From Niastella caeni (GTDB taxonomy: Bacteria > Bacteroidota > Bacteroidia > Chitinophagales > Chitinophagaceae), in the NCBI RefSeq assembly GCF_004834005.1, contig NZ_STFF01000003.1, forward strand, positions 496,001 to 560,000: a stretch of DNA of 64,000 nt, written 5' to 3'. The notes beneath the pieces were generated by a model. The model ran no database searches. It was not told the DNA's origin and saw only the letters and a program-made list of their open reading frames with translations. A program made the translations under genes and the position numbers. This document shows, piece by piece, positions 28,042 to 52,605 of the stretch (positions are counted from its first letter, which is position 1; each line of letters opens with the position of its first letter).

Positions 28042-28341
28042 ATGAAAAAAATAAAAATCATGCTGTTTTCTCTTGCGCTTATAGCTGTTGTAGGTGGCGC
28101 ACTGGCTTTTAAAGCCAAATTTGTTGAAGAGTATTGCACTACAACTACACTGAATGGAACTTGTTCCTATAATGGACCTACTGGTGCACCACGTCCATTA
28201 ACCTGCACGGATGTAATAATAGAAAACTCTACAACTACAGATGATGTCAGTAAGCCGTTTTATTGCTATACAACTTCAAACGGTTCAGCCTGCCAAAATA
28301 GAACATGTACGTTCTCATCATATTTCAAGGCAGACAATTAA
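28042..28341 (+). CDS. Secreted six-cysteine small protein, copy 1
   Basis: A 99-aa precursor. The Sec signal MKKIKIMLFSLALIAVVGGA probably ends near ALA (residue 22). The mature ~75 aa have six cysteines (32, 41, 55, 75, 84, 89) that are invariant in the copies at 37240, 45464 and, after frame repair, 37740. The spacing suggests three disulfides. The chain is Thr/Ser/Asn-rich: YCTTTTLNGTCSYNGPTGAP, ENSTTT, FYCYTTSNG, QNRTCTFSSYF. No maturation enzyme of known RiPP classes is nearby, and no family was recognised with certainty (a relation to the small DUF6520/NVEALA-type secreted peptides is possible). The gene is followed by a strong terminator. Confidence 0.8.
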   Translation: MKKIKIMLFSLALIAVVGGALAFKAKFVEEYCTTTTLNGTCSYNGPTGAPRPLTCTDVIIENSTTTDDVSKPFYCYTTSNGSACQNRTCTFSSYFKADN

Positions 28342-28365
28342 ACCATAAAATGGTTTAATATTTTT

Positions 28366-28405
28366 AAAAGGCTAGGCAGTGATTGTATCGCTACCTAGCC
28401 TTTTT
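28366..28405 (+). terminator. Rho-independent terminator after six-Cys copy 1
   Basis: AAAAGGCTAGG (28366-28376) pairs with CCTAGCCTTTTT (28394-28405), a stem with a T-tail. A smaller inverted repeat, TAAACCAT / ATGGTTTA, lies over the stop codon region (28339-28358). With the SusD gene convergent, it may act for both strands. Confidence 0.85.
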
Positions 28406-28581
28406 ACTCATTATATGTGACTGTTATTATTTAATATTTTGCATTATTCAATCGAGACGTGTAACTGACTTAGTGTTGTTATAGTGTCGAGAATTGGCGT
28501 ATCTGCTATTACCAACCGTGTTCCAGCCGAAAACTCCCTTGGCTTAGGCTCTCATCTAATAATGGCGCATTACTATTTACA

Positions 28582-30126
28582 TTAGTTGTATCCCTCGTTC
28601 TGCCATATATTGGGAGCTTTCTGTAATTCTATCATTGGCAAAGGATACAACTGTTTATAGCTTTGCCAGGCACCCCCATTAGCTTTTAAAGGCGTTACTA
28701 TCTTCATTATTTCATCAATTTTCTCAGTACGTATCAGATCAAACCAACGATGCCCCCATTCAGAAAATAATTCTACCTGTCTTTCATGAAGAATTGCTGA
28801 AAGCAATGTAGATTTATCATTAGCAGCAGTATTGGGTAGTCCAGCTCTCGCTCTAATGGCATTTAGATCAACTTGAGCCCCTCCAATTTTCCCTTGATGC
28901 GCTCTTGCCTCGGCCCTAATCAAATACTGTTCCCCAATTCTTAATACCATAAAATACTCCTTCATATTCAAAGTATTTGTAGTTGCGGTTATTGTTGGAT
29001 TAGGAAGATTGATCTTGTACTTATTAGGATATGATACCGTATCATTCTTTGTGGCAGTGAGTTTATAAATCGTTGTATCTACCCAATTACCATATTCAGC
29101 CCGTTTATCGCCAGCTTCAAAACTTTGAAGCAACTGTTTACTCAAATAAATGGGATTGGCACCAGAATTTCCGGTAGAAGGCCCTGCTGGTGGAATTATT
29201 AACAATTGTGCGTCAATAGTATTGAATGCTAAGGAAGTAGGCTGCAGTTGCCATATAGCTTCACGGCTGTTTTTTATGTAAACATCATTTAAATTTGGTA
29301 ATAGATCAAACAAGGTTGTATTACTAATAACAGCAGAAGCCTGTTCTTCTGCCTTGGCATAATCGTTGGAATACAAATAAACTCTTGACAGCAAGGCTAT
29401 GGCGGCCCATTTATTGGGACGCGTTCTTTCTACAGTTGAACTTAATAAAGTTACATCTACATAAGTTTCACTTAACAGACTAATGGCATCTTGTAGATCA
29501 AGAATAATCTGTTTGTAAACCTCTTCTCTGGGTGACCGGGAAAGAAACGTATTGACTATTGGATCAGCAGTTAAAGCTAAGGGGACATCACCAAATTCAT
29601 TTACAAGATAAAAATAAAAAAAAGCTCGCAAGAACTTTGATTCTCCCAATAATTGTGCTTTGACTATTGGTGTTAGGCCAGATGAAGCATTTAAACCCTC
29701 TATAGCGGCATTACATTTAAATACAAAGTTATAAAGCGGAGACCAGTGCTCAGCTCCTGTGGCCTTTGTTGGGTCTATTTGAGATAATGCATTCTTATAA
29801 TAACTTAAATAGCTAGCTATAGTAATTCCTCCATTCAACGTATATTCATCTGCACTAAGACCAGCAAAGAAAGAAATGCTCCCTCCGCCTTGAATGAGAC
29901 TACTATTCATTGCCCCATATAACGCAGTCAATACAGAAGTAGCCGTTGCATTTGTAGTATAAACCGAATTTTCAGTTATGATGCCGGCAGGCGGCGGTAC
30001 CTCAACAAATTTTTTGCAAGCGCTTTGAAGTATAAATAGAGGAAATATAAGAATAAACATAATCCAAGTTATATCCTTAGGCATACTTGCTTTTATTTTT
30101 ATAAATCTTAAAATCATGGCAATCAT
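28582..30126 (-). CDS. SusD/RagB-family outer-membrane lipoprotein
   Basis: A 514-aa protein with a type II signal (WIMFILIFPLFILQSAC, Cys37 in this frame; an internal start at MPKDITWIM would give a more typical 23-residue signal). Features are VYTTNATATSVLTALYGAMN near the N-terminus, the SusD TPR-like helices (KFLRAFFYFYLVNEFGDVPL, RPNKWAAIALLSRVYLY) and the C-terminal block EYFMVLRIGEQYLIRAEARA plus LNAIRARAGLPN and FSEWGHRWFDLIR. SusD proteins lid the SusC channel and bind glycan or peptide ligands at the cell surface. It follows SusC by 48 bp on the same strand. The ligand is unknown; the neighbouring S9 peptidases hint at peptides rather than glycans. Confidence 0.95.
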   Translation of the reverse strand: MIAMILRFIKIKASMPKDITWIMFILIFPLFILQSACKKFVEVPPPAGIITENSVYTTNATATSVLTALYGAMNSSLIQGGGSISFFAGLSADEYTLNGGITIASYLSYYKNALSQIDPTKATGAEHWSPLYNFVFKCNAAIEGLNASSGLTPIVKAQLLGESKFLRAFFYFYLVNEFGDVPLALTADPIVNTFLSRSPREEVYKQIILDLQDAISLLSETYVDVTLLSSTVERTRPNKWAAIALLSRVYLYSNDYAKAEEQASAVISNTTLFDLLPNLNDVYIKNSREAIWQLQPTSLAFNTIDAQLLIIPPAGPSTGNSGANPIYLSKQLLQSFEAGDKRAEYGNWVDTTIYKLTATKNDTVSYPNKYKINLPNPTITATTNTLNMKEYFMVLRIGEQYLIRAEARAHQGKIGGAQVDLNAIRARAGLPNTAANDKSTLLSAILHERQVELFSEWGHRWFDLIRTEKIDEIMKIVTPLKANGGAWQSYKQLYPLPMIELQKAPNIWQNEGYN

Positions 30127-30174
30127 TTTAAATAGTTACAGTCATAATCCAAATAAAAATGACAATAAGTATTT

Positions 30175-33100
30175 TTATAAGTCAAGTTTTATTCCCACTG
30201 TCCACATCTGCAAGGGAGGCATTGTTGTACTACTCTGCGTCTCAGGATCCATTCCTGAATAATTTGTAATAGTTACGAGATTTTCTCCGCGAAAATACAA
30301 AAGGCAACCCTGCAATTTTGCTTTTTGCAGCCATTGTGGCGGTAATTGCCAGCTAAGAGATAAATTCTTCAGTCTTATATATGAAGCATCAGACATATAA
30401 TAAACATCACTTTCCACCGGCCACATTGGAAGGTTACCTATATTATTTGTAAACCGTCCAATTGGTTTATTATCCTGCTGCTTCTGCCATCGATTCAGCA
30501 CTGATATCGGCTGGTTACTAATTCCACTTGAAAACCGACCCGGCACAGTACTACCATTCCAATAGAAAAAGTCTCGTATCCCATTTTGATTTACAAATTG
30601 AAAAAGAAAATCAAGTTGAAATCTCTTAAAACTGATACTATTTAAAAATCCTCCATAGAATTTAGAAACATTAGAAACAAGGGCAGTTCTGTCTGCCTCA
30701 TAGTCCGGATCAAAAGTTGGATTACCAGATTTATCAAATACCATATATTTACCAGAAGCTGGATCAACACTAGCATATCGATATAATTTAAGTACATCAA
30801 CCGGATGACCAATAATAACTCCATAATCACCAGAAACAAAAGCTGTCTTTTCTATACCAGGAAATTTAACAACTCTATTCTGAGGTATAGTCAAATTTAT
30901 GTTACTAGTCCATGTAAAATTTCTTCCCTTGATGTTCACTGTGTTTAATGTAAACTCCCAACTTAAATTACGTATTGTGGCTTCAATATTTTGAGTAACG
31001 CCTGAAAAACCAGTTATAGAAGGTAAAACATTTAATATAATTTGATTTGAAGATCTGTTTTGCGCATAAACAACACCTAAAATAATGCGATCCTTTATAA
31101 AACCAAGATCAATCCCCCCTTGCCATTTAAGTGTTTCTTCCCATTGCAGTTGCGGGTTTGGTAAACTTAAAACCTGTAGGCCAGTTCCATTTTGATATGG
31201 AATAGGGAGGTTACTAATGGAATACGTACTTATATATGCATAATCACCAATTTGGTCATTACCGGTTGTTCCTAAACTACCGCGCAATTTCCCAAAACTA
31301 AGAAAAGGCATTCTTTGTTTAATAAAACGCTCTTCACTAAATATCCAACCTAATCCGATACTTCCAAAATTATGAAATTTGTTTTTGTCGCCGAAGCGGC
31401 TACTACCATCCCGCCTTAAAGTAAGATTCATTAAATACCTATCACTCCAGTTACCATTGAGCCGACCAAAAACAGCATTATACTTGTACTGAGCTGATCC
31501 GGCTGCAGATATAGTTTTAGTAGTTGCTGCCAACGGGGATTTCATTAATTGATCATTCGAGTATCCGAAACCTGTTACTTGTAAGAATTCATTGTTACTC
31601 TTTTGCCAGGAGGCACCGAATAGCCCTTCCATTTTTATATTACCTATATTTCGTTTATAGGTTAGCTGGGGCTCAATTACCCAACTGCTCATATTTCTTT
31701 TCCCAAATTGTGAAATCCTGTTACTTGTTGCTCTATCTTCTGGCGGAGTACGTTCCACTCGTGAAGGCATATACAGATCATTTTGTAAATTCGTATATCC
31801 CAAGCTGCTACCTATATCCAAACCAGGAAAAATGCTATAAGAAAGGTTAACATTAGTAACAAGGTTCTTAGTGTCATTTGTAAAATCTCGACTATAAGTG
31901 GTTGCCAATGGGTTGATCCAAGTACTCCTGCCTGCTGCATTAGGGGCCCAGTTTAGTGTACCGTTTTCATTATATAATGGTGGTGCATTCGGTTCTAACA
32001 ACACGGCGCTTTGTGTAAGATCAACACCAGGCAAATGATTTTGGTTATACATGTAATTACCAGACAATTGGACCCGGAATTTTGAATTAACAGAAGAACT
32101 GTTTAAAGTAAAATGAAGCCCTGACTTTTTATCATCAAAATCACCCGGAAACACCGTTGTTTGTCGGTTATAGGTAGCTCCAATCAAATATTGTACGGCA
32201 GAGGTTCCTCCAGAAATACTTGTGTTAATGTTAGTATATTTAGCTGTTTCGCCAATTAATTCCTTTTGCCAATCTGTATATCTTGTAGTATCCCATATAG
32301 TGAGATCAGGCGCATACAAATTAGGAGCGGTTGCATTTGGAACAGATGATGGTTTCAAACCATCATTTTTTAATGCCTCATTACGCATATCCAGATATTG
32401 CTTAGTATTCATCATATCTGCTCGCCGGATAATTTTTCCCCAGCCTTGCTGAACATTAATACTCATCTTGGTCTTGCCCGCTTTCCCTTTTTTGGTAGTA
32501 ATTAAAATCGCACCATTACCAGCTCTACTTCCATAAATTGCCGTTGCATCAGCATCCTTGAGAATTTCTATTGACTCAATATCGGCTGGATTAATGTAAT
32601 TTAATGGACTGCCCCCTTGCACTATTGTTTCCATTGGAGATGGCGAAGGTGTAGTGAACTGTTGGTATGGATAGGGCACTCCATCTATTACGATGAATGG
32701 TTCGAGACCGTTAAACCTAAAACTGTTGCGCCCCTGTATTCGCACTGTAACTCCTCCACCATTCATACCTGATAGTTGCCTGATTTCAATACCTGGGACC
32801 CTGCCTTGTAAAGACAACAAAGGGTTCTGCACAGGTTGCTTTTCAATATCCGCCGCCTTCACCGTTGCTATATTACCGGTTGTGACACGCCGTGAACTAG
32901 TACCATATGCAATCACTACCGTTTCATCCAATATCGACTGCTTTTGGTTTAACGAAATAGTTAAAAAAGGTTTGCCCTTAATTTGAAATGTTTGAGGATC
33001 ATGACCAACAAACGAAATTTCCAAAATCGCATTTTCATCAAGATTATCCAGGGTGAACCGGCCCTGATTATCAGTAGTTGTACCAATGTTGGTTCCTTTC

Positions 33101-33597
33101 ACTTTCACATTGGCGCCGACTAATGGATTACCTTGTGGATCTGTAACTTTACCACTTATGGTAACTGGGTCGCTCGAAGCAGGTGGCAATTGCATGGCTG
33201 ATTCTATAGCCAGCTCTTTCTTTTTAACAGATATTGCGTTATTTACTATTTTATAGGTAAATGGCTGGTTGGCAAAACATATATCCAGCACTTGAACTAT
33301 ACTGGCTTTTACAACTGTTATGTCGACCGGCTTGGCATTCTTTAACAAGCCGTCTTCGTAAAAGAAGGAATAACCAGTTTGTTTTTGAATTTCGCTGAAG
33401 ACTTTCTCGAGCGGAGCATTTTTAAGCGTAATTGTGAGCATCTGTGATAACCCACGGGCGCTTACATGTAAAAAGGCGGCTAATAGAATGATGGCAGTCA
33501 GTTTCATAACCATCAGCATTTTTTTGGTTAGCACCCGTTGACTTTGTTTCATTGCTGCGAAAACGGCCAACCGGTGACAATAAGCAGTTATTTCCAT
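30175..33597 (-). CDS. SusC/RagA TonB-dependent outer-membrane transporter with STN domain
   Basis: A predicted 1140-aa protein; the ATG at 33597 (MEITAYCHRLAVFAAM) fits the usual Chitinophagaceae start better than the upstream TTG. After the signal come an STN domain (LTITLKNAPLEKVFSEIQKQ, then YSFFYEDGLL), a carboxypeptidase-like domain (ISGKVTDPQGNPLVGANVKV), the plug with ATVKAADIEKQPVQNPLLSL and SIEILKDADATAIYGSRAGN, and a long beta-barrel ending AGVKLDL-like (MWTVGIKLDL). The STN domain indicates signalling to a FecR anti-sigma factor, which lies directly upstream (33976). Transport is energised by TonB. With SusD it forms a surface uptake complex. Confidence 0.96.
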   Translation of the reverse strand: MEITAYCHRLAVFAAMKQSQRVLTKKMLMVMKLTAIILLAAFLHVSARGLSQMLTITLKNAPLEKVFSEIQKQTGYSFFYEDGLLKNAKPVDITVVKASIVQVLDICFANQPFTYKIVNNAISVKKKELAIESAMQLPPASSDPVTISGKVTDPQGNPLVGANVKVKGTNIGTTTDNQGRFTLDNLDENAILEISFVGHDPQTFQIKGKPFLTISLNQKQSILDETVVIAYGTSSRRVTTGNIATVKAADIEKQPVQNPLLSLQGRVPGIEIRQLSGMNGGGVTVRIQGRNSFRFNGLEPFIVIDGVPYPYQQFTTPSPSPMETIVQGGSPLNYINPADIESIEILKDADATAIYGSRAGNGAILITTKKGKAGKTKMSINVQQGWGKIIRRADMMNTKQYLDMRNEALKNDGLKPSSVPNATAPNLYAPDLTIWDTTRYTDWQKELIGETAKYTNINTSISGGTSAVQYLIGATYNRQTTVFPGDFDDKKSGLHFTLNSSSVNSKFRVQLSGNYMYNQNHLPGVDLTQSAVLLEPNAPPLYNENGTLNWAPNAAGRSTWINPLATTYSRDFTNDTKNLVTNVNLSYSIFPGLDIGSSLGYTNLQNDLYMPSRVERTPPEDRATSNRISQFGKRNMSSWVIEPQLTYKRNIGNIKMEGLFGASWQKSNNEFLQVTGFGYSNDQLMKSPLAATTKTISAAGSAQYKYNAVFGRLNGNWSDRYLMNLTLRRDGSSRFGDKNKFHNFGSIGLGWIFSEERFIKQRMPFLSFGKLRGSLGTTGNDQIGDYAYISTYSISNLPIPYQNGTGLQVLSLPNPQLQWEETLKWQGGIDLGFIKDRIILGVVYAQNRSSNQIILNVLPSITGFSGVTQNIEATIRNLSWEFTLNTVNIKGRNFTWTSNINLTIPQNRVVKFPGIEKTAFVSGDYGVIIGHPVDVLKLYRYASVDPASGKYMVFDKSGNPTFDPDYEADRTALVSNVSKFYGGFLNSISFKRFQLDFLFQFVNQNGIRDFFYWNGSTVPGRFSSGISNQPISVLNRWQKQQDNKPIGRFTNNIGNLPMWPVESDVYYMSDASYIRLKNLSLSWQLPPQWLQKAKLQGCLLYFRGENLVTITNYSGMDPETQSSTTMPPLQMWTVGIKLDL

Positions 33598-33975: not shown

Positions 33976-35199
33976 CTATGGTATCACAATTATTTTTTTT
34001 CCTTCAATACGGCAGTGAACGCCTGCAAACTCTATTACACTTAACACTTCCGAGGCATTCAACCGGCGGGGGATTTCACCGGTAAAAAATTTCTCCGGCA
34101 GGTTTTTATCATATTCTACCTGTACATCGTACCATCGCGCCAATTGCCGCATCACTGTTTTCAGATCGGTACGTACGAATTTAAATTTGCCATTTTTCCA
34201 GGCCACTGCCTCTTCTACATTAGCGTCTTTATCTACCCGTACTTTTTCATTGGCCTTTGTTAACAAAGCTTGTTGTCCGGGTTTCAGAAGAACCGAAGCC
34301 GGTGTTTTCACTATTACTTTCACCTTACCTTGCAATAGGGTGGTCTTTGATTCTTTTTCATCTTCATAAGCCATGACATTAAAATGCGTACCCAGTACCT
34401 CTACCTTCATCCCATTATTCACCTCCACTTCAAAAGGCATTCTTTCTGCACTTCCCGGCATCGTTACATGGGCTACTTCAAAATAGGCCTCACCGGTCAA
34501 CTGTACCACGCGCTCTTTCCCTGAAAAACTCACGGGAAATTTCAATGAACTGGCGGCATTCAACCATACTTTGCTTCCATCGGGCAAAGTGAGCTGGTAT
34601 TGTCCGCCTCGTGGGGTAGTCACGGTATTATAGCTAGTAGCTAGTGGCGAGTGGCTACTAGGGGATGTAGATTGAGACGTATTATATGCCAATTCTCCAT
34701 CTGCCTGCTTTACCACGTTAGTGCTCCCCTGCTTGCTGATTGTCCCGTTCGCAATATTGTCTAAAACAATATTGGAACCATCGGCCAGAGTCAGCACCGC
34801 TTTATTACCCCCCGGTGCAATATCCTGGTTTGTTTTTTTTGTTGCTGTCTCGGTAACAGCCGGTCGTTTATCCCTCCGATTATTAATAACTAATAACCAT
34901 ACCATGCATACCACTGCTATTGCACTTGCGACAACAGCTATATATTTTAACCACTTAGTTTTGGCATGGTACAGATCAACAACAGATGCGGGTTGATTTA
35001 TATTATGCGTTTGTTGAAACTGATACAGATCCTGCAAAGCACGTTGCAATCCCTCTTCATTGGTAAGTTCATTAAAAACCTTCCTGTTTTCATCCGATTC
35101 ACTGATCCAACTGTTCATTATACTTCTTTCTTCCCCGGTCAATTCGCCCAGTAAATGCTTCCGAATCAACATAGATATGTCACCTGCCTTATCAGTCAT
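33976..35199 (-). CDS. FecR-family anti-sigma factor
   Basis: A 407-aa protein. The N-terminal anti-sigma helix bundle (LIRKHLLGELTGEERSIMNS) is cytoplasmic. One transmembrane helix lies at about 84-107 (YIAVVASAIAVVCMVWLLVI). The periplasmic FecR domain (about 175-290) has TVTTPRGGQYQLTLPDGSKV, WLNAASSLKFPVSF and TGEAYFEVAH. A C-terminal DUF4974-like region (FTGEIPRRLNASEVLSVIEF) ends GKKIIVIP. It receives the STN signal from SusC and releases an ECF sigma factor. The expected sigma gene is not adjacent; the nearest is at 46764-47366, 11.6 kb upstream on the same strand. GC content is higher than in the six-Cys/S9 genes around it. Confidence 0.95.
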   Translation of the reverse strand: MTDKAGDISMLIRKHLLGELTGEERSIMNSWISESDENRKVFNELTNEEGLQRALQDLYQFQQTHNINQPASVVDLYHAKTKWLKYIAVVASAIAVVCMVWLLVINNRRDKRPAVTETATKKTNQDIAPGGNKAVLTLADGSNIVLDNIANGTISKQGSTNVVKQADGELAYNTSQSTSPSSHSPLATSYNTVTTPRGGQYQLTLPDGSKVWLNAASSLKFPVSFSGKERVVQLTGEAYFEVAHVTMPGSAERMPFEVEVNNGMKVEVLGTHFNVMAYEDEKESKTTLLQGKVKVIVKTPASVLLKPGQQALLTKANEKVRVDKDANVEEAVAWKNGKFKFVRTDLKTVMRQLARWYDVQVEYDKNLPEKFFTGEIPRRLNASEVLSVIEFAGVHCRIEGKKIIVIP

Positions 35200-36768: not shown

Positions 36769-37021
36769 ATAAAGCATAGTTATTATAGGCTGATCCTTTA
36801 GAATTCTTTAAATCTTAATGCAAACCATTCTCATCATTAATTATGAAAGCGTTCTTTTAGTAAAATCTCACTGATATAAACCCTGAATTTTTAGAAAACT
36901 AACCGCTAAAAAATAATAAATCTTATTTCAAATAAATATTAATGGGATTAAGAATAGAAAATGCCAGAATAACAATCCATAGTTTTACAACTCTACCATG
37001 TATGATAGCAACAAGATCAAC
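36769..37021. other. Gene-free AT-rich gap upstream of operator B
   Basis: No gene. This is the divergent region between the thioredoxin gene (minus) and six-Cys copy 2 (plus). The complement of the minus promoter of the thioredoxin gene should lie in 36780-36860, but no clear -7 box was picked out. Confidence 0.4.
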
Positions 37022-37239: not shown

Positions 37240-37539
37240 ATGAAAAAAATAAAATCCATGCTGTTTTCCCTCACTCTTATTGGTATTATAAGTGGTTCAC
37301 TGGCTTCTAAAGCTAAATTCAGGGAAGAATATTGTACTACAACTACATTAAATGGAACATGTTCGTATAATGGCCCTACTGGTGCGCCACGACCAATTAC
37401 TTGTACAGATGTAATGCTGGAAAACTCTACAACTACAGACAATCCGGATAAACCCTTTTATTGTTATACTACTGCAAACGGCAGTCCATGTCAAAACAGG
37501 ACTTGTACTTTTTCATCGTACTTCGTAGAAAATTTTTAA
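37240..37539 (+). CDS. Secreted six-cysteine small protein, copy 2
   Basis: A 99-aa precursor. The signal MKKIKSMLFSLTLIGIISGS ends near LAS; the mature part has Cys at 32, 41, 55, 75, 84 and 89, exactly as in copies 1 and 4. Differences from copy 1 cluster in the signal peptide and at ENSTTTDNPD and the tail FVENF. ATG spacing to the conserved leader is the same as in the other copies. It lies 200 bp upstream of frameshifted copy 3. Exported, presumably disulfide-bonded; function unknown. Confidence 0.8.
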   Translation: MKKIKSMLFSLTLIGIISGSLASKAKFREEYCTTTTLNGTCSYNGPTGAPRPITCTDVMLENSTTTDNPDKPFYCYTTANGSPCQNRTCTFSSYFVENF

Positions 37540-38122: not shown

Positions 38123-38226
38123 CTTAATCTCAGAGTAAGGCTATTCAAAAAGCATTATTCAAAGTTAGTTTATTCACATTGCAAATTTCTAAAACCTCAA
38201 TAAGAATGATTAGAAGGACAATATTT

Positions 38227-41193
38227 TTACTCCATGTTATTTTTTTTGCAAACTGAGCATTTTTTCCTACAATAACTTTTTGAATCCAGTTCAAAACGGC
38301 TCTCAATCCCTTTTAGTTTGTAAGGTATACCTTCAGTCATCCAACGCGGTGCAGGTGCATTCTTCAGGTAATGATCAAAAAACTGAGTGTATCTAATTGT
38401 AAAATCCCGTAAATCTTTTACCTTACCTATGGTATGGCCTTCTTCATCATACTGCAACCACCAAACTGGCTTTTCAAGACGGCGCAACGCAATATACATT
38501 TGAACTGCCTGTTCCACTGGTGCTCCATCCTTCTTACTGTGAAATTGAAGCAATGGTGATACTACCTTATCTGCAGATAAAACTGATGTATGATCCATCC
38601 AGGAAATTTTATTCAACCAAAGATTACCTAGCCCAGTCCCATAAGAATCAAGCTCTCCCCATTCTAACCTGCTACCTAAGTTATCACGCGCAAGGGACAA
38701 CGAAAGATTTATAATATTAGTAGTACCTGCTCCGATAGACATAGCAGCAAAAGAATTAGAATGCGTAAACAAATAGTACCCAAATCTTCCTGAATTGCTA
38801 TGCCCTGCCGCGCCCATATGCTCCCCATCAACATAGGAAAGGGTTTTAAGATAACGGGCTGCCCCCTCAATACTGTTCATGGTGCTAAGCCCCCAGTTCC
38901 CCGGGATGAAACGTATATCTGGTACAAATACTAAGTATCCATGACTCACCATCCAAGCGGGCTTTGCAAATATAACTGGTGAGCTTATATAATTCGGGGG
39001 AAGAAATTGATAAAGCTGATCAGATAAAGATGCGTAAAATGTTATAATCACCGGGTATTTTTTTGTGGAATCAAAATTTTCCGGCTTGTATAATACCCCC
39101 TGCCCCATTATACCATCTAAATGTTTATAAGAATGCAATTCTGTTGTAAACCAGTTATAGTTTTTTTGCGGTTGCAAGTGAGTTAATGGATGATAATTTT
39201 TAAAATCCTTAGTCACATAATAATTAGGTGCTTCAGTAGCTGTTTGCCGTTGTACGATCCAGATATTTGCATCGGCTGCTTTCACGGGATACATTCCACT
39301 CCCTGACCCACCGATACCATTCAGATTTTCCATAAAGCATGGCCCCATGTATAACTTTTCTGGCTTACCTGGCACTCCCAAGACCATGCGATAATAGCCA
39401 TTGAACTTGCTTTGCCGGTTAAATGCTTTTAGTAACAGGGTGTCTTTACTCTTGTAAATCCCCATCTTTCCTTCACCACTTACCCGTATTATGATATTAT
39501 GTTGCCGGCCATAGCCATTGGTGCAATTTACCGGTGGCTTATTCCCATAAAGATCAAGTTGCCAGATATCATAATTATCAGCTACTAACACACATCCTTC
39601 ATCTTCCAGCCAACCTATCATTCGATCTACCGTATTATATGTCCGATTTGTATCTTCACTTCGTACTCCGAATTGAACAGAGGGAACTCTTCCTGATATA
39701 TTAACCAGCTTCCCACTACGCAGATTGTAACTAAAATAATTACCGATCTTATCCCCATTAAAGAAAACCAGATATTCACCGTTGGGCGAAAATTGTACGC
39801 TGGGAGCTCCAACTTTCTCAGTTAATGACTTGCGGCTACCATCTTTAAGCGATACCACAAATGTTTTATTATTACCGCTCTCCCTTTCCCAAAAACGGTC
39901 ATTATTGGATATGGTTTGCACAACGGCAACATCACCTGATATACCTCGGGTTATTATCTTTTCGTTCTCGCTTTCCAATTGAATAACCTTCATGTTCTCT
40001 GGATTTAGCACGGCAGTAAACTTTACAGCCTTATCGAGCAGGTAAGGTTGGGTCGATTGAAGAATGGTATCCATGTAGCTCCACACATCAACCTGAACAG
40101 CATCAGGATCTGTTACTTTCTTTTCTTTTGTGAGTGGTGCTAACGAAAACTGGATATATTGGTTATTATCTGTAAAAGAAGCCATTCCTTGTATCAATAA
40201 CCCATCCTCGATTCCGATTGAATTGTCCTTTAACAACATTTCCGCTTTTTCCAAACCTACCCGCCAGTACCATATTGAGTTTTTCTTTGAACTGTCTTGC
40301 ACCACAAAAACCAACTGTTTACCACTGTCGTCCAATTGCAAATCACTTATCGTACTATTATTACTACTCGCTTGCCATATTGGAATGGCCTTTCCATCAG
40401 ACAAATCCACATACAGTAAACCACTTTGATTAGTTGATGAGTTTGAGATTATAAGTGATAATGCACTCCCGCTAACACTAAATCTATAACCAATTACAAA
40501 TGAAAACCGATAAGCGATTCCTGTGCTTAAACAATAAACTACCAACTCTTTATCATTACTTAACTGATAAGCCAGACATTTGCCGGTTCTATCAAAACCA
40601 TAATCGACAACTCCCGAAAAACGCTTTTCAATGCCGGTTAGCAGGTTTTGCAAAACCACGTCCTTATTTTTTAATTGGTATGCTATCCACTCATTTTTAC
40701 CAGACAAGTTACCATTCAGCGGAACATGGTAACTTAAAACATCCTTCACCTTGCGGGGCCTGTCGTTGCCCAAGGCCATAAAACAAAGCTCTTCTTTATC
40801 CTGACAGAAGTACAGCTTGCTATCTGCAGAAAAAAAACCATTAACTGATCCACCTAATGATTGCCGCCATCCACTTATGGTTGATTGCAGCACAATACTG
40901 TCAACCTCACCTAATCTGTTAGTCGAAACACCGTATGCAATATATTGTCCATCCGGACTAATAGTTACGTTTTTACCAACCGGAAAACTCACCCAATTAT
41001 CAATAGCATTAAAATCAAGTATCGGTTTCCCAAGCTGGGAGGATAATTGATGTGTATGACTCCAAACAAATCTACCCAGGTTCCAGCGCTCGTCGGCCTT
41101 CCCTTGAACATTCTTGTTTACCAAAATAGCATTATTCTGCGCCAATACATTTGAATTAATACCTAACAAAAAAAATAAAATCAATCGATTCAT
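38227..41193 (-). CDS. Large S9-type peptidase with Cys-rich tail, paralogue A
   Basis: A predicted 988-aa exported alpha/beta-hydrolase of the prolyl oligopeptidase family, longer than the usual ~700 aa. Signal MNRLILFFLLGINSNVLAQ (start chosen by analogy with paralogue B; the frame opens 18 codons earlier). The N-terminal ~650 aa are beta-propeller-like with WD-style repeats (ISPDGQYIAYG, FSPNGEYLVFF). The catalytic domain has Ser799 in GHSNSGRFG, Asp889 in HSKKDGAPVEQ and His920 in DEEGHTIG. The elbow GHSNS differs from the normal GxSxG by Ser for the last Gly. The C-terminus YCRKKCSVCKKNNME has a C-x3-C-x2-C motif (975, 979, 982). Convergent with six-Cys copy 3. Confidence 0.88.
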   Translation of the reverse strand: MNRLILFFLLGINSNVLAQNNAILVNKNVQGKADERWNLGRFVWSHTHQLSSQLGKPILDFNAIDNWVSFPVGKNVTISPDGQYIAYGVSTNRLGEVDSIVLQSTISGWRQSLGGSVNGFFSADSKLYFCQDKEELCFMALGNDRPRKVKDVLSYHVPLNGNLSGKNEWIAYQLKNKDVVLQNLLTGIEKRFSGVVDYGFDRTGKCLAYQLSNDKELVVYCLSTGIAYRFSFVIGYRFSVSGSALSLIISNSSTNQSGLLYVDLSDGKAIPIWQASSNNSTISDLQLDDSGKQLVFVVQDSSKKNSIWYWRVGLEKAEMLLKDNSIGIEDGLLIQGMASFTDNNQYIQFSLAPLTKEKKVTDPDAVQVDVWSYMDTILQSTQPYLLDKAVKFTAVLNPENMKVIQLESENEKIITRGISGDVAVVQTISNNDRFWERESGNNKTFVVSLKDGSRKSLTEKVGAPSVQFSPNGEYLVFFNGDKIGNYFSYNLRSGKLVNISGRVPSVQFGVRSEDTNRTYNTVDRMIGWLEDEGCVLVADNYDIWQLDLYGNKPPVNCTNGYGRQHNIIIRVSGEGKMGIYKSKDTLLLKAFNRQSKFNGYYRMVLGVPGKPEKLYMGPCFMENLNGIGGSGSGMYPVKAADANIWIVQRQTATEAPNYYVTKDFKNYHPLTHLQPQKNYNWFTTELHSYKHLDGIMGQGVLYKPENFDSTKKYPVIITFYASLSDQLYQFLPPNYISSPVIFAKPAWMVSHGYLVFVPDIRFIPGNWGLSTMNSIEGAARYLKTLSYVDGEHMGAAGHSNSGRFGYYLFTHSNSFAAMSIGAGTTNIINLSLSLARDNLGSRLEWGELDSYGTGLGNLWLNKISWMDHTSVLSADKVVSPLLQFHSKKDGAPVEQAVQMYIALRRLEKPVWWLQYDEEGHTIGKVKDLRDFTIRYTQFFDHYLKNAPAPRWMTEGIPYKLKGIESRFELDSKSYCRKKCSVCKKNNME

Positions 41194-41228
41194 ACTATTT
41201 TTTTTCAACCAATAATAATAAATCTTTC

Positions 41229-41236
41229 CAAATATA
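41229..41236 (-). promoter_or_regulatory. -7 box of the S9 paralogue A gene
   Basis: On the minus strand TATATTTG at this place matches the Bacteroidota -7 consensus TAnnTTTG exactly, about 36 bp upstream of the ATG. Paralogue B has TATGTTTTTG in the equivalent place (about 44955-44964). Confidence 0.55.
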
Positions 41237-41537
41237 TAGTTGACCATATGATCATTTAACTATACTATTTTGAAAAGAATAGAAATTACTCAAGTTACCT
41301 TTTAAAAAAACGTAAATATTTCACAAAATGGGATTACCGTGAGGCTTGATTGAATCTTAACAATTTACTCCCTGTTGCACTCTTGTTTTCTTTAATTCAA
41401 TTATACAAACAGTTTCAATATATCTTTCCAAATAAAAAACCCTGATTGGCAAAAAAACTAACCGTAAATAGTAAAAAATAATACAAGAAAAACTTTATCT
41501 ACCGAAATCCGGTACAAATCATAATGCATTGCAAGTC

Positions 41538-41738
41538 AAATTTGTTGGACATTATTATACAACAGAGACGTTGAATTGAAGTTGTTCGTATGATGGACCT
41601 TCTGGACCACGACCGTAAAATTAGAAAACAATACAACTACAAACGACAGATCAAAGCCTTTTTATTGCTATACAACCTTCAATGGAAATCTTTGCCAAGT
41701 TAGCCTTGTACATTCCCATCTCTCTTCGTGAAAAATAA
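41538..41738 (+). pseudogene. Relic of a six-cysteine protein gene (fifth copy)
   Basis: The sequence AAATTTGTTGGACATTATTA, TTGAATTGAAGTTGTTCGTA, TGATGGACCTTCTGGACCAC, then AAAACAATACAACTACAAAC, TTTTATTGCTATACAACC and AGCCTTGTACATTCCCATC lines up with the mature part of the intact genes. It has lost the start and signal region, has stops in every frame and has small deletions. It stands in the same relation to S9 paralogue B as copy 3 does to paralogue A. Confidence 0.7.
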
Positions 41739-41800
41739 TTAACCAGTATACATATGGTAGTTAAACATAGTAATAAAATTATACTATTCATCAATCAAGA

Positions 41801-41833
41801 CGGCCAGCTAAAAAATAAAATATTAGTTGGCCG
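41801..41833. terminator. Shared hairpin between relic and S9 paralogue B
   Basis: CGGCCAGCTA (41801-41810) pairs with TTAGTTGGCCG (41823-41833). It is followed by AAAGCATTATTCAAAGTAAG as at the other two sites. The surrounding 41237-41535 has no gene. Confidence 0.7.
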
Positions 41834-41935
41834 CTTTGTACAAGAGGTAAGCTATCCACAAAGCATTATTCAAAGTAAGTTTATTGTATATTAACCTTCT
41901 TAAAAGCAATACAATTGATTATCAGCACAAAATTA

Positions 41936-44914
41936 TTACTGTTTGAACTCCCTACTACTTTTTTTGCATACCATACATTTTTTTCCACAAGAACCTTCCC
42001 AATCTAGCTCATAACGACTCTCAATACCTTTAAGCCTATAAGGAATACCTTCAGTCATCCAACGCGGCGCTGGTGCACTCTTCAAGAAATGATCAAAAAA
42101 TTGAGTATATCTAATAGTAAAATCCCTTAAATCCTTAACCTTACTTATGGTATGGCCTTCATCATCATACTGTAACCACCACGCCGGTTTTGCAAGACGG
42201 CGCAAGGCTATGTACATTTGAACTGAACTTAATAAAGCATTGTCTTTTTTATTTTGAAAAATCAATAAAGGACTAATCGCCTTATCGATATGCAAAACAG
42301 CTGTATGATCCATCCACAAATCCTTGTTTTGCCAAAGATTGCCAAGCCCTCCCGATCCATAGGCGCTACATTCATGCCATTCTAAATTACTCTCTTCTTT
42401 GCCTCTTGATTGAAGTAATAAAGCAGAACTCAATAGATTCGGAGCTCCTCCCCCCATCGACATGGCCGCAAAAGATTTCGAATGCGTAAACAAATAGTAG
42501 CCAAATCTTCCGGAATTACTATGACCTGCCGCCCCCATACGCTCACCATCAACATAGGAAAGAGTTTTGAGATACCTTGCAGCCCCCTCAATGCTGTTCA
42601 TAGTGCTGAGGCCCCAGTTGCCCGGGATGAAACGTATATCTGGTACGAATACCAGGTATCCATGGCTCACCATCCAGGCGGGTCTTGCAAATATAACCGG
42701 AGAGCTTATATAATTGGGGGGAAGAAATTGATACAACTGGTCGGATAAAGCTGCATAAAAAGAAATAACCACCGGATACTTTTTTGTGGGATCAAAATTT
42801 TCCGGCCTGTACAAGACACCTTTGCCCAAAGTACCATCTAAATGTCTATAAGAATGCAACTCCGTTGTAAGCCAGTTGTAGTTTTTTTGCGGTTGTAGAT
42901 GAGTTAGAGGTTTATAATCTTTAAAATCCCTTGTCACAAAATAATTAGGCGCTTCAGTAGCTGTTTGCCGCTGCACGATCCATATACTTGCATCGGCTGC
43001 TTTCATGGGAAACATTCCACTACCCGATCCACTGATACCATTCAGGTTTTCCATAAAACATGGTCCCATGTATAACTTCTCAGGATTCCCTGGCACGCCC
43101 AAGACCATGCGATAATAACCATTGAACTTGGTTCGCTGGTTAAATGCTTTTAGTAGCAGTGTGTCTTTATTGCTGTAAACGCCCATCCCTGCTTCGCCAC
43201 TTATCCGAAATATGGTTTTATGTTGCCTGCCATAGCCTTTGGTAAAATTTACCGGCGGCTTTTTCCCATCAAGATCTAGCTGCCAGATATCATAATTATC
43301 AGCCACCAGCAATCCCTTTTCTCCCAGCCAACCGATCATTTGATCCACTGTAATATACGTCAGTGAGGGATCTTCACTTCGTATACCGAATTGACCTGAG
43401 GGAACTCTGGCGGATATATTGACCAGTTTACCATTGCGCAGGTTATAACTAAAATAGTTACCGATCTTATCGCCATTAAAAAAAATAAAATAATTACCAT
43501 CGGGCGAAAATCGTACACTGGGAACTCCAACTTTCTCAGTTAATGGCTTACGGCTACCATCATTAAAAAACACCACAAATGTTCTATTATTGCCATTCTC
43601 CTTTTCCCAAAAACGGTCATTATCGGATTTTGTTTGCACAATTGCGACATCACCCGATATACCCCTGATTATTAGCTTCTCGTTCTCTTTTTCCAGTTGG
43701 ATAACCATCCCATTAGCAAGATCCAACACAGCAGTAAACTTTGCCTGCTCCTTGAGCAGGTAGGGCTGGGTTGACTGAAGAATAGTGTCCTTGTAGTTCC
43801 ACACATCAACCTGAACTGCATCAGTATCTATTCCTTTCTCCTCTTTTATTTGAGGTGCTAAATAAAATTGGATATAGTGGTTATTATCTGTAAAAGAGGC
43901 TTTTCCTTGTATTAATAACCCAACTGCTATCCCGACTGAATTGTCTTTTAGCTTCATCACCGCTTTTTCCATCCCTTCCCGCCAATACCATATTGAATTT
44001 TTCCTTGAACTATCTTGAACTACAAAAACAACCTGTTTACCAGCACCGTCCAGTTGCAAATCGCTAATTGTATTATCATTATCACTCGTCTCCCAGATCG
44101 AAATTGCTTTTCCATCAGATAAATCTACATATTGCAATCCACTTCGATTAACCGATGAGCTTGAGGTTTTAAGCAATAAAACACTGCCATTACCATCAAA
44201 ACTATATCCATTTACAGACGAAAACGTGAATTCAGATCCAAAACTTAAATTATAAACTACCAACTCTTTATCATTGCCTAACTGATAGGTCAGCCATTTA
44301 CCAGTTCTATCAAAACCATAATTAATGACTCCCTCAAAACGCTTTTCCTTGCCGGTAAGCAGGTTTTGCAAAACCACGTCCTTATTTTTTAATTGATATG
44401 CTATCCACTCATTCTTACCAGACAAATTACCATTCAATGGAACATTAAAACTTAAAACGTCTTTCACCTTTCGGTTCTGGTCGCTGCCCAAAGTCATAAA
44501 ACAAAGTTCTTCCTTATCCTGAAAAAAATACAGTTTGCTATCTGCAGAAAAAAAACCTGCATTTGATCCAACAATTGCTTGCCGCCATTCACTTACAGTT
44601 GATTGCAGCACAACACTATCGACCTCACCTAATCTGTTAGTCGAGATGCCATAAATGATATATTGCCCATTACGGCTGATAGTTACATTTTTGCCAACAG
44701 GGAAACTCATCCAATTATCAATGGCATTAAAATCAAGTATCGGTTTGCCAGGCTTGGATGATAACTGATGCGTATGGCTCCAAACAAATTTATCCAGGTT
44801 CCAGCGTTCATCTCCCTTTACTTGTATACTTTTATTAATCAGCATATCATTATGCTGTGCCCACAAAACATCTAAATTAATACCTAACAAAAAAAATAAT
44901 ATTAATCGCTTCAT
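41936..44914 (-). CDS. Large S9-type peptidase with Cys-rich tail, paralogue B
   Basis: A predicted 992-aa protein from MKRLILFFLLGINLDVLWAQ, most residues identical to paralogue A by eye, so the two are a tandem duplication. Catalytic Ser799 is in the same GHSNSGRFGYYLF elbow, Asp891 in NKKDNALLSS and His921 in DDEGHTISK. The PVEQ segment after the Asp in paralogue A has changed to ALLSS. The tail SCGKKCMVCKKSSREFKQ keeps the C-x3-C-x2-C motif (976, 980, 983). It is exported and probably faces the periplasm or surface. The sequence between the two genes holds the relic of a six-Cys gene, so the duplicated unit was [six-Cys gene + peptidase]. Confidence 0.88.
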   Translation of the reverse strand: MKRLILFFLLGINLDVLWAQHNDMLINKSIQVKGDERWNLDKFVWSHTHQLSSKPGKPILDFNAIDNWMSFPVGKNVTISRNGQYIIYGISTNRLGEVDSVVLQSTVSEWRQAIVGSNAGFFSADSKLYFFQDKEELCFMTLGSDQNRKVKDVLSFNVPLNGNLSGKNEWIAYQLKNKDVVLQNLLTGKEKRFEGVINYGFDRTGKWLTYQLGNDKELVVYNLSFGSEFTFSSVNGYSFDGNGSVLLLKTSSSSVNRSGLQYVDLSDGKAISIWETSDNDNTISDLQLDGAGKQVVFVVQDSSRKNSIWYWREGMEKAVMKLKDNSVGIAVGLLIQGKASFTDNNHYIQFYLAPQIKEEKGIDTDAVQVDVWNYKDTILQSTQPYLLKEQAKFTAVLDLANGMVIQLEKENEKLIIRGISGDVAIVQTKSDNDRFWEKENGNNRTFVVFFNDGSRKPLTEKVGVPSVRFSPDGNYFIFFNGDKIGNYFSYNLRNGKLVNISARVPSGQFGIRSEDPSLTYITVDQMIGWLGEKGLLVADNYDIWQLDLDGKKPPVNFTKGYGRQHKTIFRISGEAGMGVYSNKDTLLLKAFNQRTKFNGYYRMVLGVPGNPEKLYMGPCFMENLNGISGSGSGMFPMKAADASIWIVQRQTATEAPNYFVTRDFKDYKPLTHLQPQKNYNWLTTELHSYRHLDGTLGKGVLYRPENFDPTKKYPVVISFYAALSDQLYQFLPPNYISSPVIFARPAWMVSHGYLVFVPDIRFIPGNWGLSTMNSIEGAARYLKTLSYVDGERMGAAGHSNSGRFGYYLFTHSKSFAAMSMGGGAPNLLSSALLLQSRGKEESNLEWHECSAYGSGGLGNLWQNKDLWMDHTAVLHIDKAISPLLIFQNKKDNALLSSVQMYIALRRLAKPAWWLQYDDEGHTISKVKDLRDFTIRYTQFFDHFLKSAPAPRWMTEGIPYRLKGIESRYELDWEGSCGKKCMVCKKSSREFKQ

Positions 44915-45215
44915 ATTTATTTTCATTCAATCAATGGTAATAAATCTTTTCAAAAACATAGATTATTATATTATCGATTAACTATACAATATTAAAATGG
45001 AAATCTTTTTTAGATTCCCACCAATTTAAAACCCTGATTGACAAAAAACCTAACCGCAAAAAGTAACAAATTTTAAAACAAGAAAGGCATAAGCTATCGA
45101 AGAAAGGAAATAAGACCGACATCCGGTTACAAAGACATATTGCATGCAACTGATATCTCTCATGCTTCACTTAGTTTTTACAACTCTGCGTGTAATAAGT
45201 AATTAGCAAATCAAT
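44915..45215. other. Gene-free AT-rich gap upstream of operator C
   Basis: No gene. It contains the minus-strand promoter region of S9 paralogue B (a TATGTTTTTG box near 44955-44964) and the left border of operator C. It is similar in sequence to the region upstream of paralogue A (41194-41290). Confidence 0.4.
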
Positions 45216-45463: not shown

Positions 45464-45766
45464 ATGAAAAAAATAAAAATCATGCTGTTTTCTCTTGCGC
45501 TTATAGCTGTTGTAGGTGGCGCACTAGCTTTTAAAGCCAAATTTGTTGAAGAGTATTGTACTACAACTACATTGAACGGAACTTGTTCATATAATGGACC
45601 TACTGGAGCACCACGTCCATTAACCTGCACGGATGTAGTTATGGAAAACTCTACAAATACAGACGATTTCAATAAGCCCTTTTATTGTTATACGACTTCA
45701 AACGGAAGTCCCTGCCAAAATAGAACTTGTACTAATTCATCGTACTTCAAGGCAAATGATGAGTAA
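45464..45766 (+). CDS. Secreted six-cysteine small protein, copy 4
   Basis: A 100-aa precursor, nearly identical to copy 1: the same 30 residues at the start, six Cys at 32, 41, 55, 75, 84 and 89, and differences mainly at DVVMENSTNTDDFN, GSPCQ and TNSSYFKANDE. The signal peptide MKKIKIMLFSLALIAVVGGA is identical to copy 1, so these two are the youngest pair although they lie 17 kb apart. It is followed by the shared hairpin at 45811. No S9 gene follows it. Function unknown. Confidence 0.8.
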   Translation: MKKIKIMLFSLALIAVVGGALAFKAKFVEEYCTTTTLNGTCSYNGPTGAPRPLTCTDVVMENSTNTDDFNKPFYCYTTSNGSPCQNRTCTNSSYFKANDE

Positions 45767-45810
45767 ATCACCATACGTCATGTAGTTATAAATAGTATTA
45801 CTAATCAAGC

Positions 45811-45843
45811 CGGCCAGCTAAAGAATAAAATATTGGTTGGCCG
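45811..45843. terminator. Shared hairpin after six-Cys copy 4
   Basis: CGGCCAGCTA (45811-45820) pairs with TTGGTTGGCCG (45833-45843), followed by AAAGCATTATTCAAAGTAAG. There is no convergent peptidase gene here, so the hairpin is a leftover of the duplicated unit or serves the six-Cys gene alone. 45844-46189 holds no gene. Confidence 0.65.
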
Positions 45844-46189
45844 CCTTGCACAAAAAGCAGGCTACATATAAAGCATTATTCAAAGTAAGTTTATTGTCCT
45901 ATTAAACCTCTTAAAATTAAACGAATGATTATCAGCACAACCTTTACTAGTTGAACCATATTGATACATGATAAAATATTTTCAAATCCTATAATAGTAT
46001 CAATCTTTGAGACAACCATAAGTAAGTCCTGAATTAACAAAAAAAACAGCTAAATTAAAGATATCCCTAAGGCTTAATTCCCCCCCTTGACCTCCATCAA
46101 CTTCTTCCCCCCAAACCAAATAAAAAAAACATGCACAACCGAAGTTCTTCCTAAATTAACGCTTCGGATAACCATTAAACCAATAAACC

Positions 46190-46612
46190 ATGATGGAAGT
46201 CATTCTTCGGGCGGCAGAGTTCTCGGAGATCTGGGAGCCGGAAGGTACCTTGCTGAGAGAGAGCAATGAAGTGCTTTTTTGTATGCAGGTATATAGCTCA
46301 GCTAAGGGCAACCCGGTACTCCTGGTGCATGTGGCCTTCGTTTTCAACCTGTTCATGTGCAAACACCCCTTTGAAGTAGCTACTGCTCACTGCTATTTTG
46401 AAATTAGTAAAGACCGCGACATCCTCCTTATGGAACTATACCGCATAGCGTTAAAAGCGGCCGATACGCTAAACAAACATATCCGCGCAAAAAACACTCC
46501 GTACTTAGAAGGTGAAGTATTTCCGGTAGCACCGCCTGATTATGTACGACATCAATTAATGCATACCCTGAGCTGGTTGAATCAACCTTCCCCTATTTAC
46601 TATTACTATTGA
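46190..46612 (+). CDS. Protein of unknown function
   Basis: A 140-aa protein without a signal peptide or membrane segment, starting MMEVILRAAEFSEIWEPEGT. It has a hydrophobic middle (PVLLVHVAFVFNLFMC) and a helical C-terminal half (LLMELYRIALKAADTLNKHI), ending in PIYYYY. Codon use and GC are back to the level of the flanking genome, so it marks the right edge of the AT-rich zone. It is convergent with the ECF sigma gene at 46764. No family was recognised, and real expression is uncertain. Confidence 0.55.
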   Translation: MMEVILRAAEFSEIWEPEGTLLRESNEVLFCMQVYSSAKGNPVLLVHVAFVFNLFMCKHPFEVATAHCYFEISKDRDILLMELYRIALKAADTLNKHIRAKNTPYLEGEVFPVAPPDYVRHQLMHTLSWLNQPSPIYYYY

Positions 46613-46763
46613 AAAAATCAGGGATATGTACAGCACACATCTTTCTTTGATCTGGCCTTCTTTCCTTCTGGTTTTACACGCAACATCTCCGTAGTGACCG
46701 TAGTGACCGACCAACAGCACAATGAAAAAGGCAACAAGGCATAAAGGCAATTTTGAAGCAGGG

Positions 46764-47366
46764 TTAATCGGTGAATAATTTTCTTATGCAGAACAGTCCC
46801 GCTATAAACGGCAGCAGCTTTTTATCTATCAACACATTCCGTAACTGCTTCAACGCTTTGAGCTTGTTATTGTACACCGCAGCAGGGGTCATCTTTAATT
46901 TGCGGGCAATGGCCTGGCTATCCAGCCCGTCTATATAAAACAGTTTGAACACATTCTTTCGCACCGGCGGTAAACATTCTATCTCCCGGTACACTTCCAT
47001 CAAAAATTCACTGCGCACCATCTGCGCCAGCACATAATCATCTTTCTCGTCACTTAACGTACTGAGCTCCTGCTCCGATTGCCGGTGCCGCTTCACAGCA
47101 TCCAGGTACTTCAAACACTTGTTTCTAACGGTAATAAACAGAAAGGCCTTGATGTTATTCATGGTCACAAAATCGGTATTGCGCCGCAACAAGATCTCTA
47201 ACGTTACCACCGCTATATCTTCCGCCTCCGCCGCATGCTGCGTAATGCGGTAAGCAAAATAATACAGATGGGTAAAGTACATGTCGTAGATCTTCTTGAG
47301 CGCCGTGGTGTCCCCCTCATTGAATCGCCTTACCAACAACTCATCAGAATTTTGCCCTGCTTTCAA
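46764..47366 (-). CDS. ECF RNA polymerase sigma factor
   Basis: A 200-aa sigma factor of the Bacteroidota ECF group. Region 2 covers about 20-95 (ALKKIYDMYFTHLYYFAYRI, EAEDIAVVTLEILLRR, AFLFITVRNKCLKYLDAVKR). Region 4 covers about 130-185 (IECLPPVRKNVFKLFYIDGL, SQAIARKLKMTPAAVYNNKL). The start is a TTG (MKAGQNSDELLVRRFNEGD); no in-frame ATG lies before the upstream stop. It has no adjacent anti-sigma gene. On the minus strand the next FecR is at 33976-35199, with the two S9 genes and the thioredoxin gene between. It is the best candidate partner for that FecR. Confidence 0.9.
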   Translation of the reverse strand: MKAGQNSDELLVRRFNEGDTTALKKIYDMYFTHLYYFAYRITQHAAEAEDIAVVTLEILLRRNTDFVTMNNIKAFLFITVRNKCLKYLDAVKRHRQSEQELSTLSDEKDDYVLAQMVRSEFLMEVYREIECLPPVRKNVFKLFYIDGLDSQAIARKLKMTPAAVYNNKLKALKQLRNVLIDKKLLPFIAGLFCIRKLFTD

Positions 47367-52604: not shown

Positions 52605-52605
52605 T

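Follow-up and report, generated by a model that had tools for sequence, protein, structure and literature searches.

Bacterial loci that join a self-encoded peptide to a TonB-dependent transporter have been described in several forms. Here we compare with them a locus of Niastella caeni (Bacteroidota, Chitinophagaceae) that carries multiple copies of a gene for a small secreted protein (PEP) among genes for a SusC/SusD pair (SusCD), S9 peptidases (S9) and redox proteins. The window, that is, the whole stretch of DNA analysed, comprises 64,000 nucleotides (RefSeq assembly GCF_004834005.1, contig NZ_STFF01000003.1, positions 496,001 to 560,000) of a genome of 8.1 Mb in 17 contigs. Among the transporters of Bacteroidota, SusC/SusD pairs are very numerous, and the role mostly ascribed to them is the import of foreign nutrients. 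The multi-transmembrane protein of the locus is abbreviated as GTC, its thioredoxin-fold redoxin as RDX and its thioredoxin-domain protein as TRX.

Comparison with Described Systems

Lasso isopeptidase clusters combine a self-encoded peptide with a prolyl-oligopeptidase-family enzyme, a TonB-dependent transporter and a sigma/anti-sigma pair, and their purpose is likewise unknown (PMC9266682). PEP loci differ from them in having a Sec-type leader, even numbers of cysteines, MauE and a redoxin, and SusD. The window S9 scores 40.6 bits against the lasso isopeptidase family NF033523, for which the cut-off is 400. The transporter and sigma/anti-sigma feature is present in the window (SusC with an STN domain, FecR and a sigma factor), but FecR occurs in only 6 of the 37 regions compared. 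No lasso cyclase or leader protease was found among the open reading frames (ORFs) of at least 70 residues between the first small AraC-type gene (araCs) and SusC of L043, a complete locus; the unlabelled ORFs of other regions were scanned in part.

Bacteroidota clusters of the MNIO (ChrH) type, which make ribosomally synthesised and post-translationally modified peptides, are frequently found together with SusC/SusD and, in one case, encode a prolyl oligopeptidase with a secretion signal; their precursors carry a CPxCGxG-type motif and are acted on by an MNIO enzyme (PMC12636315, preprint). No MNIO enzyme was found among the labelled ORF families of L043, a survey that included no search aimed at the MNIO profile. 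Methanobactin is also a secreted ribosomal peptide with TonB-dependent re-uptake and sigma/anti-sigma sensing, and differs in its copper-binding heterocycles made with MbnBCN (PMC9601215). PEP is poor in histidine and methionine. Methanobactin systems are not known to include S9, SusD or MauE. RagAB is a SusCD with peptide cargo, namely foreign, gingipain-cleaved peptides (PMC11817032), whereas the PEP locus encodes its own candidate ligand.

In outline the PEP module resembles the lasso-isopeptidase/TonB clusters, with unrelated enzymes, and the MNIO clusters, and by the tests made it is a member of neither. The original prediction, which knew of no system with this make-up, thus needs qualifying, since clusters of comparable anatomy and different chemistry are reported (PMC9266682; PMC12636315). 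Among openly licensed PMC papers none was found on DUF6520, NVEALA or MauE-SusC/thioredoxin peptide loci, which does not imply absence from print.

The association of the peptide with its neighbouring genes is well established, and its function is hypothetical. Our proposal, which may well be right though we hold it with slightly more doubt than belief, is that PEP, locked by disulfides and probably glycosylated, is the product of one operon and that the facing operon would bind, import, reduce and digest it. The steps that we infer are disulfide formation, glycosylation, outer-membrane crossing, re-uptake, digestion and signalling, together with the purpose they might serve. If true, a conserved gene set that provides a candidate ligand and the means to fold it, probably glycosylate it, import it and cleave it would reveal a second use of SusCD, and DUF6520, an uncharacterised family of small secreted Bacteroidota proteins, would gain a first testable role. 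The gene set occurs in several copies in soil bacteria, with related sets elsewhere in the phylum.

A Conserved Pair of Convergent Operons

A search with PEP copy 1 gave matches in 19 of 99 genomes at E <= 0.1. These include 9 of the 10 genomes from the same genus as the window; the one left is 61% complete. The named relatives are Longitalea arenae, Niastella soli, Niastella yeongjuensis and Chitinophaga rupis; weak matches in G019, G026, G028, G033, G037, G041, G043 and G059 lie outside the fetched set. The 37 regions compared are 35 fetched ones, L042 and the window. A search of the fetched regions, together with the window, yielded 60 PEP family members once three duplicate loci were set aside (L039-L041, duplicates of L043, L048 and L052). 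Removing the nine regions that a contig end truncates (L047, L050, L053, L057, L064, L068, L070, L073 and L076) leaves 28 for neighbour counts.

In these 28 regions PEP is accompanied by RDX in 23, GTC in 22, MauE in 19 and the glycosyltransferase GT2 in 16, and by S9 in 22, SusD in 23, TRX in 19 and SusC in 19 (some SusC genes are cut by the end of the region). Because the profiles for neighbouring genes derive from the very PEP regions that are counted, scores there are inflated; neither the control regions nor the 17 DUF6520 loci considered below took part in building them. RDX, S9 and SusD occur together in 18 of 28 regions, and all 18 are convergent, RDX running with PEP and S9 and SusD opposed to it. 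In the usual arrangement the peptide is followed by S9, TRX, SusD and SusC. The window order is rearranged, with SusD, SusC, FecR and TRX between PEP copies 1 and 2. The conserved module of two operons exists in several paralogous copies, of which this locus is one.

The possibility that common gene families merely cluster by chance or hitchhike was considered against 20 random 20-kb regions from six genomes, drawn from contigs that carry PEP genes elsewhere. SusC is indeed frequent, with some match below the cut-off in 8 of the 20, as is the case for SusD in 6 and S9 in 1. Control scores nevertheless stay at or below 474 bits for SusC, 159 for SusD and 58 for S9, no match to MauE, RDX, GTC, GT2, TRX or PEP was found in the 20 controls, and none of them reached the cut-offs for PEP neighbours. 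The combination moreover recurs, and this explanation, already contradicted by both the counts above and the SusC tree described below, is in our view very improbable. The same counts (S9 22/28, SusD 23/28, TRX 19/28; random 0/20) speak against the possibility, raised with the original prediction, that homologues would occur mostly without S9, SusC or thioredoxin neighbours.

The PEP Family

Three intact six-cysteine genes, one frameshifted copy and one relic lie on the plus strand of the window, as had been predicted. Copies 1 (28042-28341), 2 (37240-37539) and 4 (45464-45766) are intact, and all three have cysteines at 32, 41, 55, 75, 84 and 89. Copy 3 (37740-38047) has a frameshift within the signal peptide and an open mature part with six cysteines, and the relic (41523-41701) was matched as two pieces, one with three stops. 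For the mature parts of the intact copies, compared as three pairs, the rate of nonsynonymous substitution (dN) is 0.07-0.13 and that of synonymous substitution (dS) 0.50-1.64, which is purifying selection; with dN so far below dS, these genes appear to be functional. Positive selection between the window copies was looked for and not seen, dN being well under dS.

PEP would be a small Sec-exported protein. Across 27 loci (351 pairs) the leader is conserved and the mature part divergent, with identities of 0.58 and 0.25, compared with 0.22 for shuffled sequences; the leader, like all signal peptides here, was judged by sight and follows the pattern MKK..KIML...VVGGALAFKAK. RDX and TRX show the opposite pattern of conservation, and S9 no clear difference. 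The mature part has an even number of cysteines in all 41 PEPs of loci with GTC (none in one, two in six, four in 18 and six in 16) and in 27 of 27 if each locus contributes a single peptide. Cysteine and threonine counts cover neither a short peptide of L050 nor the frameshifted window copy, and statistical tests ignore relatedness. Numbers are also even in 13 of 13 DUF6520 proteins from elsewhere, a set that comprises the 17 fetched loci minus L095 (a near-duplicate), L099, L103 (no ORF selected) and L105, with the mature part taken by a crude cut after residue 22; the L099 peptide is counted among PEPs without GTC.

A conserved leader with a divergent core, even cysteine numbers and many paralogues per genome would also suit a bacteriocin-like weapon whose producer is protected by the convergent operon through uptake and destruction. 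The complete locus L043 encodes no exporter, however, the window copies change under purifying rather than diversifying selection, and isopeptidase-type lasso peptides of comparable anatomy are described as lacking antimicrobial activity, astexin-1 excepted (PMC9266682). PADLOC gave no match in six proteins, although as a phage-defence library it says little on bacteriocins. We consider a weapon improbable.

A scan of 57 PEP upstream regions for the Bacteroidota-type -33/-7 promoter motif found none; shuffles lead one to expect 0.2, so that the scan says little. In 9 of the 37 regions PEP genes or matches are close to the end of a contig or on a short one, as though assembly were interrupted by the copies. 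ORFs of IS66 type lie in or near the PEP loci L050, L060 and L074 (tested in L050), and a transposase of rve type lies between peptide and S9 in L045 (11237-12208).

Genes of the Proposed Making Operon

Upstream of PEP copy 1 and in the same direction lie GT2, two GTC genes, MauE and RDX. MauE and the redoxin had been noticed originally and were found as stated; GT2, the two GTC proteins and the relationship to DUF6520 extend that picture. MauE (25195-25659) is a membrane protein with a CSCGG motif (Pfam MauE, E 2.6e-31; 109 bits against a cut-off of 27), and PCSCGG recurs in 38 of 42 MauE matches. RDX (27282-27773; Pfam AhpC-TSA, E 1.2e-10) has CPYC and, by sight, a lipobox-like LAGC; its family has CxxC in 22 of 28 members and CxxS in 6. 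A role for MauE in disulfide formation in methylamine dehydrogenase has been speculated upon (PMC7794033), and MauE and the CPYC redoxin would form the disulfides of PEP.

GT2 (20561-21409; Pfam Glycos_transf_2, E 1.7e-32; 20 loci) resembles polyprenyl-phosphate-sugar synthases, its closest solved structure being dolichol monophosphate mannose synthase (5mlz, E 9.9e-14). GTC1 (23594-25153) has about nine hydrophobic stretches and is a candidate GT-C glycosyltransferase; GTC2 (25662-27197) is its paralogue (35% identity). In an alignment of 39 members D55, S56 and Y59 are nearly invariant and G75 and Y76 invariant. From familiar patterns, a conserved acidic motif and multiple transmembrane stretches, we read GTC as putatively of GT-C type, an assignment that sequence and fold tests did not confirm: five members scanned singly had no family match at 0.01, and DUF2142 gave two matches among the 39 relatives, one member at 1.4e-5, which is no help in identification.

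Among 27 PEP regions with GTC, 21 have only GT2, four only a PRK07208-type flavin adenine dinucleotide (FAD) oxidoreductase, two neither and none both; GT2 and the FAD oxidoreductase thus replace each other. The latter is weakly UDP-galactopyranose-mutase-like, and is fused to GTC in L048, L054 and L055 and separate in L051, where GT2 is missing. Mature PEPs of GTC loci are 18.2% threonine (41 peptides), compared with 8.6% in the 13 DUF6520 proteins, whose loci lack GTC, and contain 157 TT pairs as against 97 +/- 8 in shuffles. Threonine enrichment with clustered TT in GTC loci, together with the exchange of GT2 and the FAD oxidoreductase, supports a sugar role, and GT2 and the GTC proteins would probably put sugar on the threonine-rich mature PEP.

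The FAD oxidoreductase is also present in L057, a cut region without GTC. Elsewhere in the window's genome, L088 and L089 carry GTC paralogues without PEP, RDX or MauE; GTC is therefore not exclusive to the module.

Genes of the Proposed Return Operon

The minus strand carries SusD (28582-30126; Pfam SusD_RagB, E 6.3e-28), SusC (30175-33597), FecR (33976-35199; Pfam FecR, E 1.6e-16), TRX (35305-36777) and an S9 pair, all as first described, followed at 46764-47366 by an extracytoplasmic function sigma factor, a possible partner of FecR (Pfam Sigma70_r4_2, E 3e-10; TIGR02937, 66.5 bits against a cut-off of 42.9). The features of a SusCD importer are present, SusC having plug and carboxypeptidase-like domains (Pfam Plug, E 2.3e-16; CarbopepD_reg_2, E 1.2e-17) and being accompanied by SusD; it also carries STN (E 1.5e-8) and adjoins the anti-sigma factor FecR. 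TRX, of 490 residues, has a signal-like N-terminus by sight and a CGPC motif (Pfam Thioredoxin_7, E 2.4e-11), the motif being found in 16 of 20 members. S9a (38227-41247, 1006 residues) and S9b (41936-44926, 996 residues; Pfam Peptidase_S9, E 8.4e-9) belong to the same cluster, and the catalytic triad is present in both. Across the family the catalytic serine and histidine are conserved in 36 of 36 members and the aspartate in 32 of 36. The two are 77% identical and form a tandem duplication, the unit of which takes in the end of the adjoining PEP copy (37924-41275 and 41620-44997, 78.8% identity).

SusC and SusD would bind PEP and import it across the outer membrane, a periplasmic TRX would reduce its disulfides and the S9 peptidase would digest it. 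Import, reduction and digestion of a disulfide-locked peptide would explain, as we see it, why facing operons encode oxidising and reducing thiol pairs. In the window locus SusC-STN, FecR and the sigma factor may report uptake.

The same apparatus could serve a carrier, such as a metallophore or cofactor shuttle, which is exported, loaded, re-imported, reduced and digested to free its cargo. Methanobactin is a ribosomal peptide with TonB-type uptake and sigma/anti-sigma sensing (PMC9601215), and STN-SusC, FecR and a sigma factor are present in the window. The composition of the peptide points the other way: 47 mature PEPs have 0.5% histidine (background 1.9%), 0.4% methionine (2.3%) and 5.7% aspartate plus glutamate (10.0%), in a set that further omits 13 peptides with a leader missed by the pattern, and oxidised cysteines would not bind metal. 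A carrier therefore seems to us an improbable use of PEP.

DUF6520 and the SusC Clade

The sole Pfam lead for PEP is DUF6520 (PF20130, E 0.0032), and it covers the leader only (residues 1-42); the intact copies score 18.2, 12.7 and 18.0 bits, all under the cut-off of 25.4, and the mature part is unmatched. NVEALA (PF14055) was not among the Pfam matches of the three intact PEPs at E up to 1, and PF14055 occurs in 2 of 148 genomes, below its cut-off. Of 395 genomes sampled across the phylum, 32 have matches to PF20130, in 25 of them above the cut-off. From the 40 matches listed outside the window's genome, 17 were fetched (L094 and L095 are near-identical and L105 looks spurious).

DUF6520 proteins resemble PEP in the leader, and their loci in MauE and SusCD neighbours and in SusC clade (12/17). 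MauE accompanies 16 of the 17, SusC 16 and S9, at >= 150 bits, 10, so that the window shares its MauE and SusCD neighbourhood with 16 of the 17 fetched. The loci differ in that GTC, RDX and TRX do not reach the cut-offs and in that MauE is often longer (501-509 residues with an extra C-terminal part in 11 of 17). In a SusC tree 18 proteins from PEP loci and 12 from DUF6520 loci form one clade (100/100), with seven control SusCs outside. A second clade (100/100) consists of five further DUF6520-associated SusCs. The genome of the window contributes one of these five, and yet another of its SusCs groups close to the controls. Shared neighbours and a shared SusC clade make the association of peptide, MauE and SusCD wider than the genus; GTC, GT2, RDX and TRX were either gained in the lineage of the window or lost in others.

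These results bear on a more conventional use, that of a nutrient locus: foreign proteins or peptides rich in disulfides would be taken up and digested by SusC/SusD, TRX and S9, with PEP no more than an accessory, for example a decoy for priming or gating the importer. The combination of SusCD and peptidases recalls the uptake of peptides by RagAB (PMC11817032), and S9 peptidases and thioredoxins are generic tools. In three families (f1, f24 and f25) PEP and DUF6520 genes are nevertheless tied to one SusC clade, and a leader of its own, a redox pair and a GTC operon exceed what an accessory seems to need. A nutrient locus is, in our estimate, unlikely, though less so than a weapon or a carrier. 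The original proposal that the redox proteins fold the peptides, which might be ligands or substrates of SusCD and the peptidases, is borne out in part: it fits the even cysteine numbers (41/41) and the dedicated SusC clade, and it is still something that we infer.

In L090, also of the window's genome, two DUF6520-like genes whose products have odd numbers of cysteines adjoin MauE and two further SusCD pairs; FecR and a sigma factor accompany one of the pairs.

Evidence Against the Proposed Loop, and Its Likely Purpose

Several observations weigh against a loop in which PEP is made, retrieved and destroyed. L063 and L066 carry PEPs without any partner, and GTC, RDX and TRX reach the cut-offs in 0 of 17 DUF6520 loci. 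In regions without GTC, cysteine numbers are even in 14 of 17 PEPs, and threonine makes up 14.5% of these 17, the per-locus difference being not significant (p 0.27). An AlphaFold model of PEP (predicted local distance difference test, pLDDT, 45.6) is too poor for use, so that no fold supports a disulfide pattern. For GTC, profile comparison by hhalign with four divergent PMT_2 proteins gave a probability of 0.2%, the AlphaFold model (pLDDT 49.5) is likewise too poor for use, and Foldseek with that model, which is not used as evidence, returned no match at E <= 0.001. The general Bacteroidota O-glycosylation motif occurs only twice in the 41 PEPs of GTC loci, and sequons there are at chance (51 compared with 49 +/- 6), which leaves N-glycosylation of PEP unsupported.

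Between the first araCs and SusC of L043 all ORFs of at least 70 residues belong to labelled families and none is an exporter; PEP may therefore stay in the periplasm. FecR is present in 6 and a sigma factor in 8 of the 37 regions, FecR is found in 0 of the 17 DUF6520 loci from outside the window's genome, and the SusC of L096, the only one scanned from DUF6520 loci, has no STN. A signal reported by a sigma factor is therefore not general.

If PEP does travel this loop, the likeliest purpose would be recognition, with PEP as a signal that the cell both makes and retrieves and with a channel of its own for every paralogous locus. A bolder version is that Bacteroidota independently evolved a retrievable ribosomal peptide signal, a small protein released in glycosylated and disulfide-locked form, with re-uptake by the cognate SusCD reported via SusC-STN, FecR and sigma factor where present, the message erased by TRX and S9, and several insulated channels per cell; in this full form we think it unlikely, if conceivable.

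Other Genes of the Module and the Window

Two small AraC-type helix-turn-helix (HTH) proteins precede GT2 on the plus strand, at 18402-18824 (profile match 126.6 bits) and 19970-20371 (Pfam HTH_18, E 2.9e-17), and belong to a cluster found in 23 loci (cluster 1). Between GT2 and GTC1, on the same strand, lie an accessory acyltransferase 3 (21534-22712; Pfam, E 2.8e-24; 3 loci only) and, by Pfam, an AraC regulator with an AraC_binding/cupin domain (22719-23570; 6 loci). Stand-alone proteins of about 107-131 residues are encoded by 11 ORFs in 9 loci; that of L043 (949-1344) matches the C-terminal domain of RNA polymerase alpha (E 2.1e-10) and is flanked by minimal AraC-HTH proteins, upstream of the peptide operon. 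In L044 the TRX and S9 genes are separated by that of a DUF4397 protein (5226-5897), which has relatives in L046, L054 and L069. Further along the minus strand of the window, at 50229-54882, are a GH127-type protein and a DPPIV-type S9 peptidase, apparently unrelated to the module.

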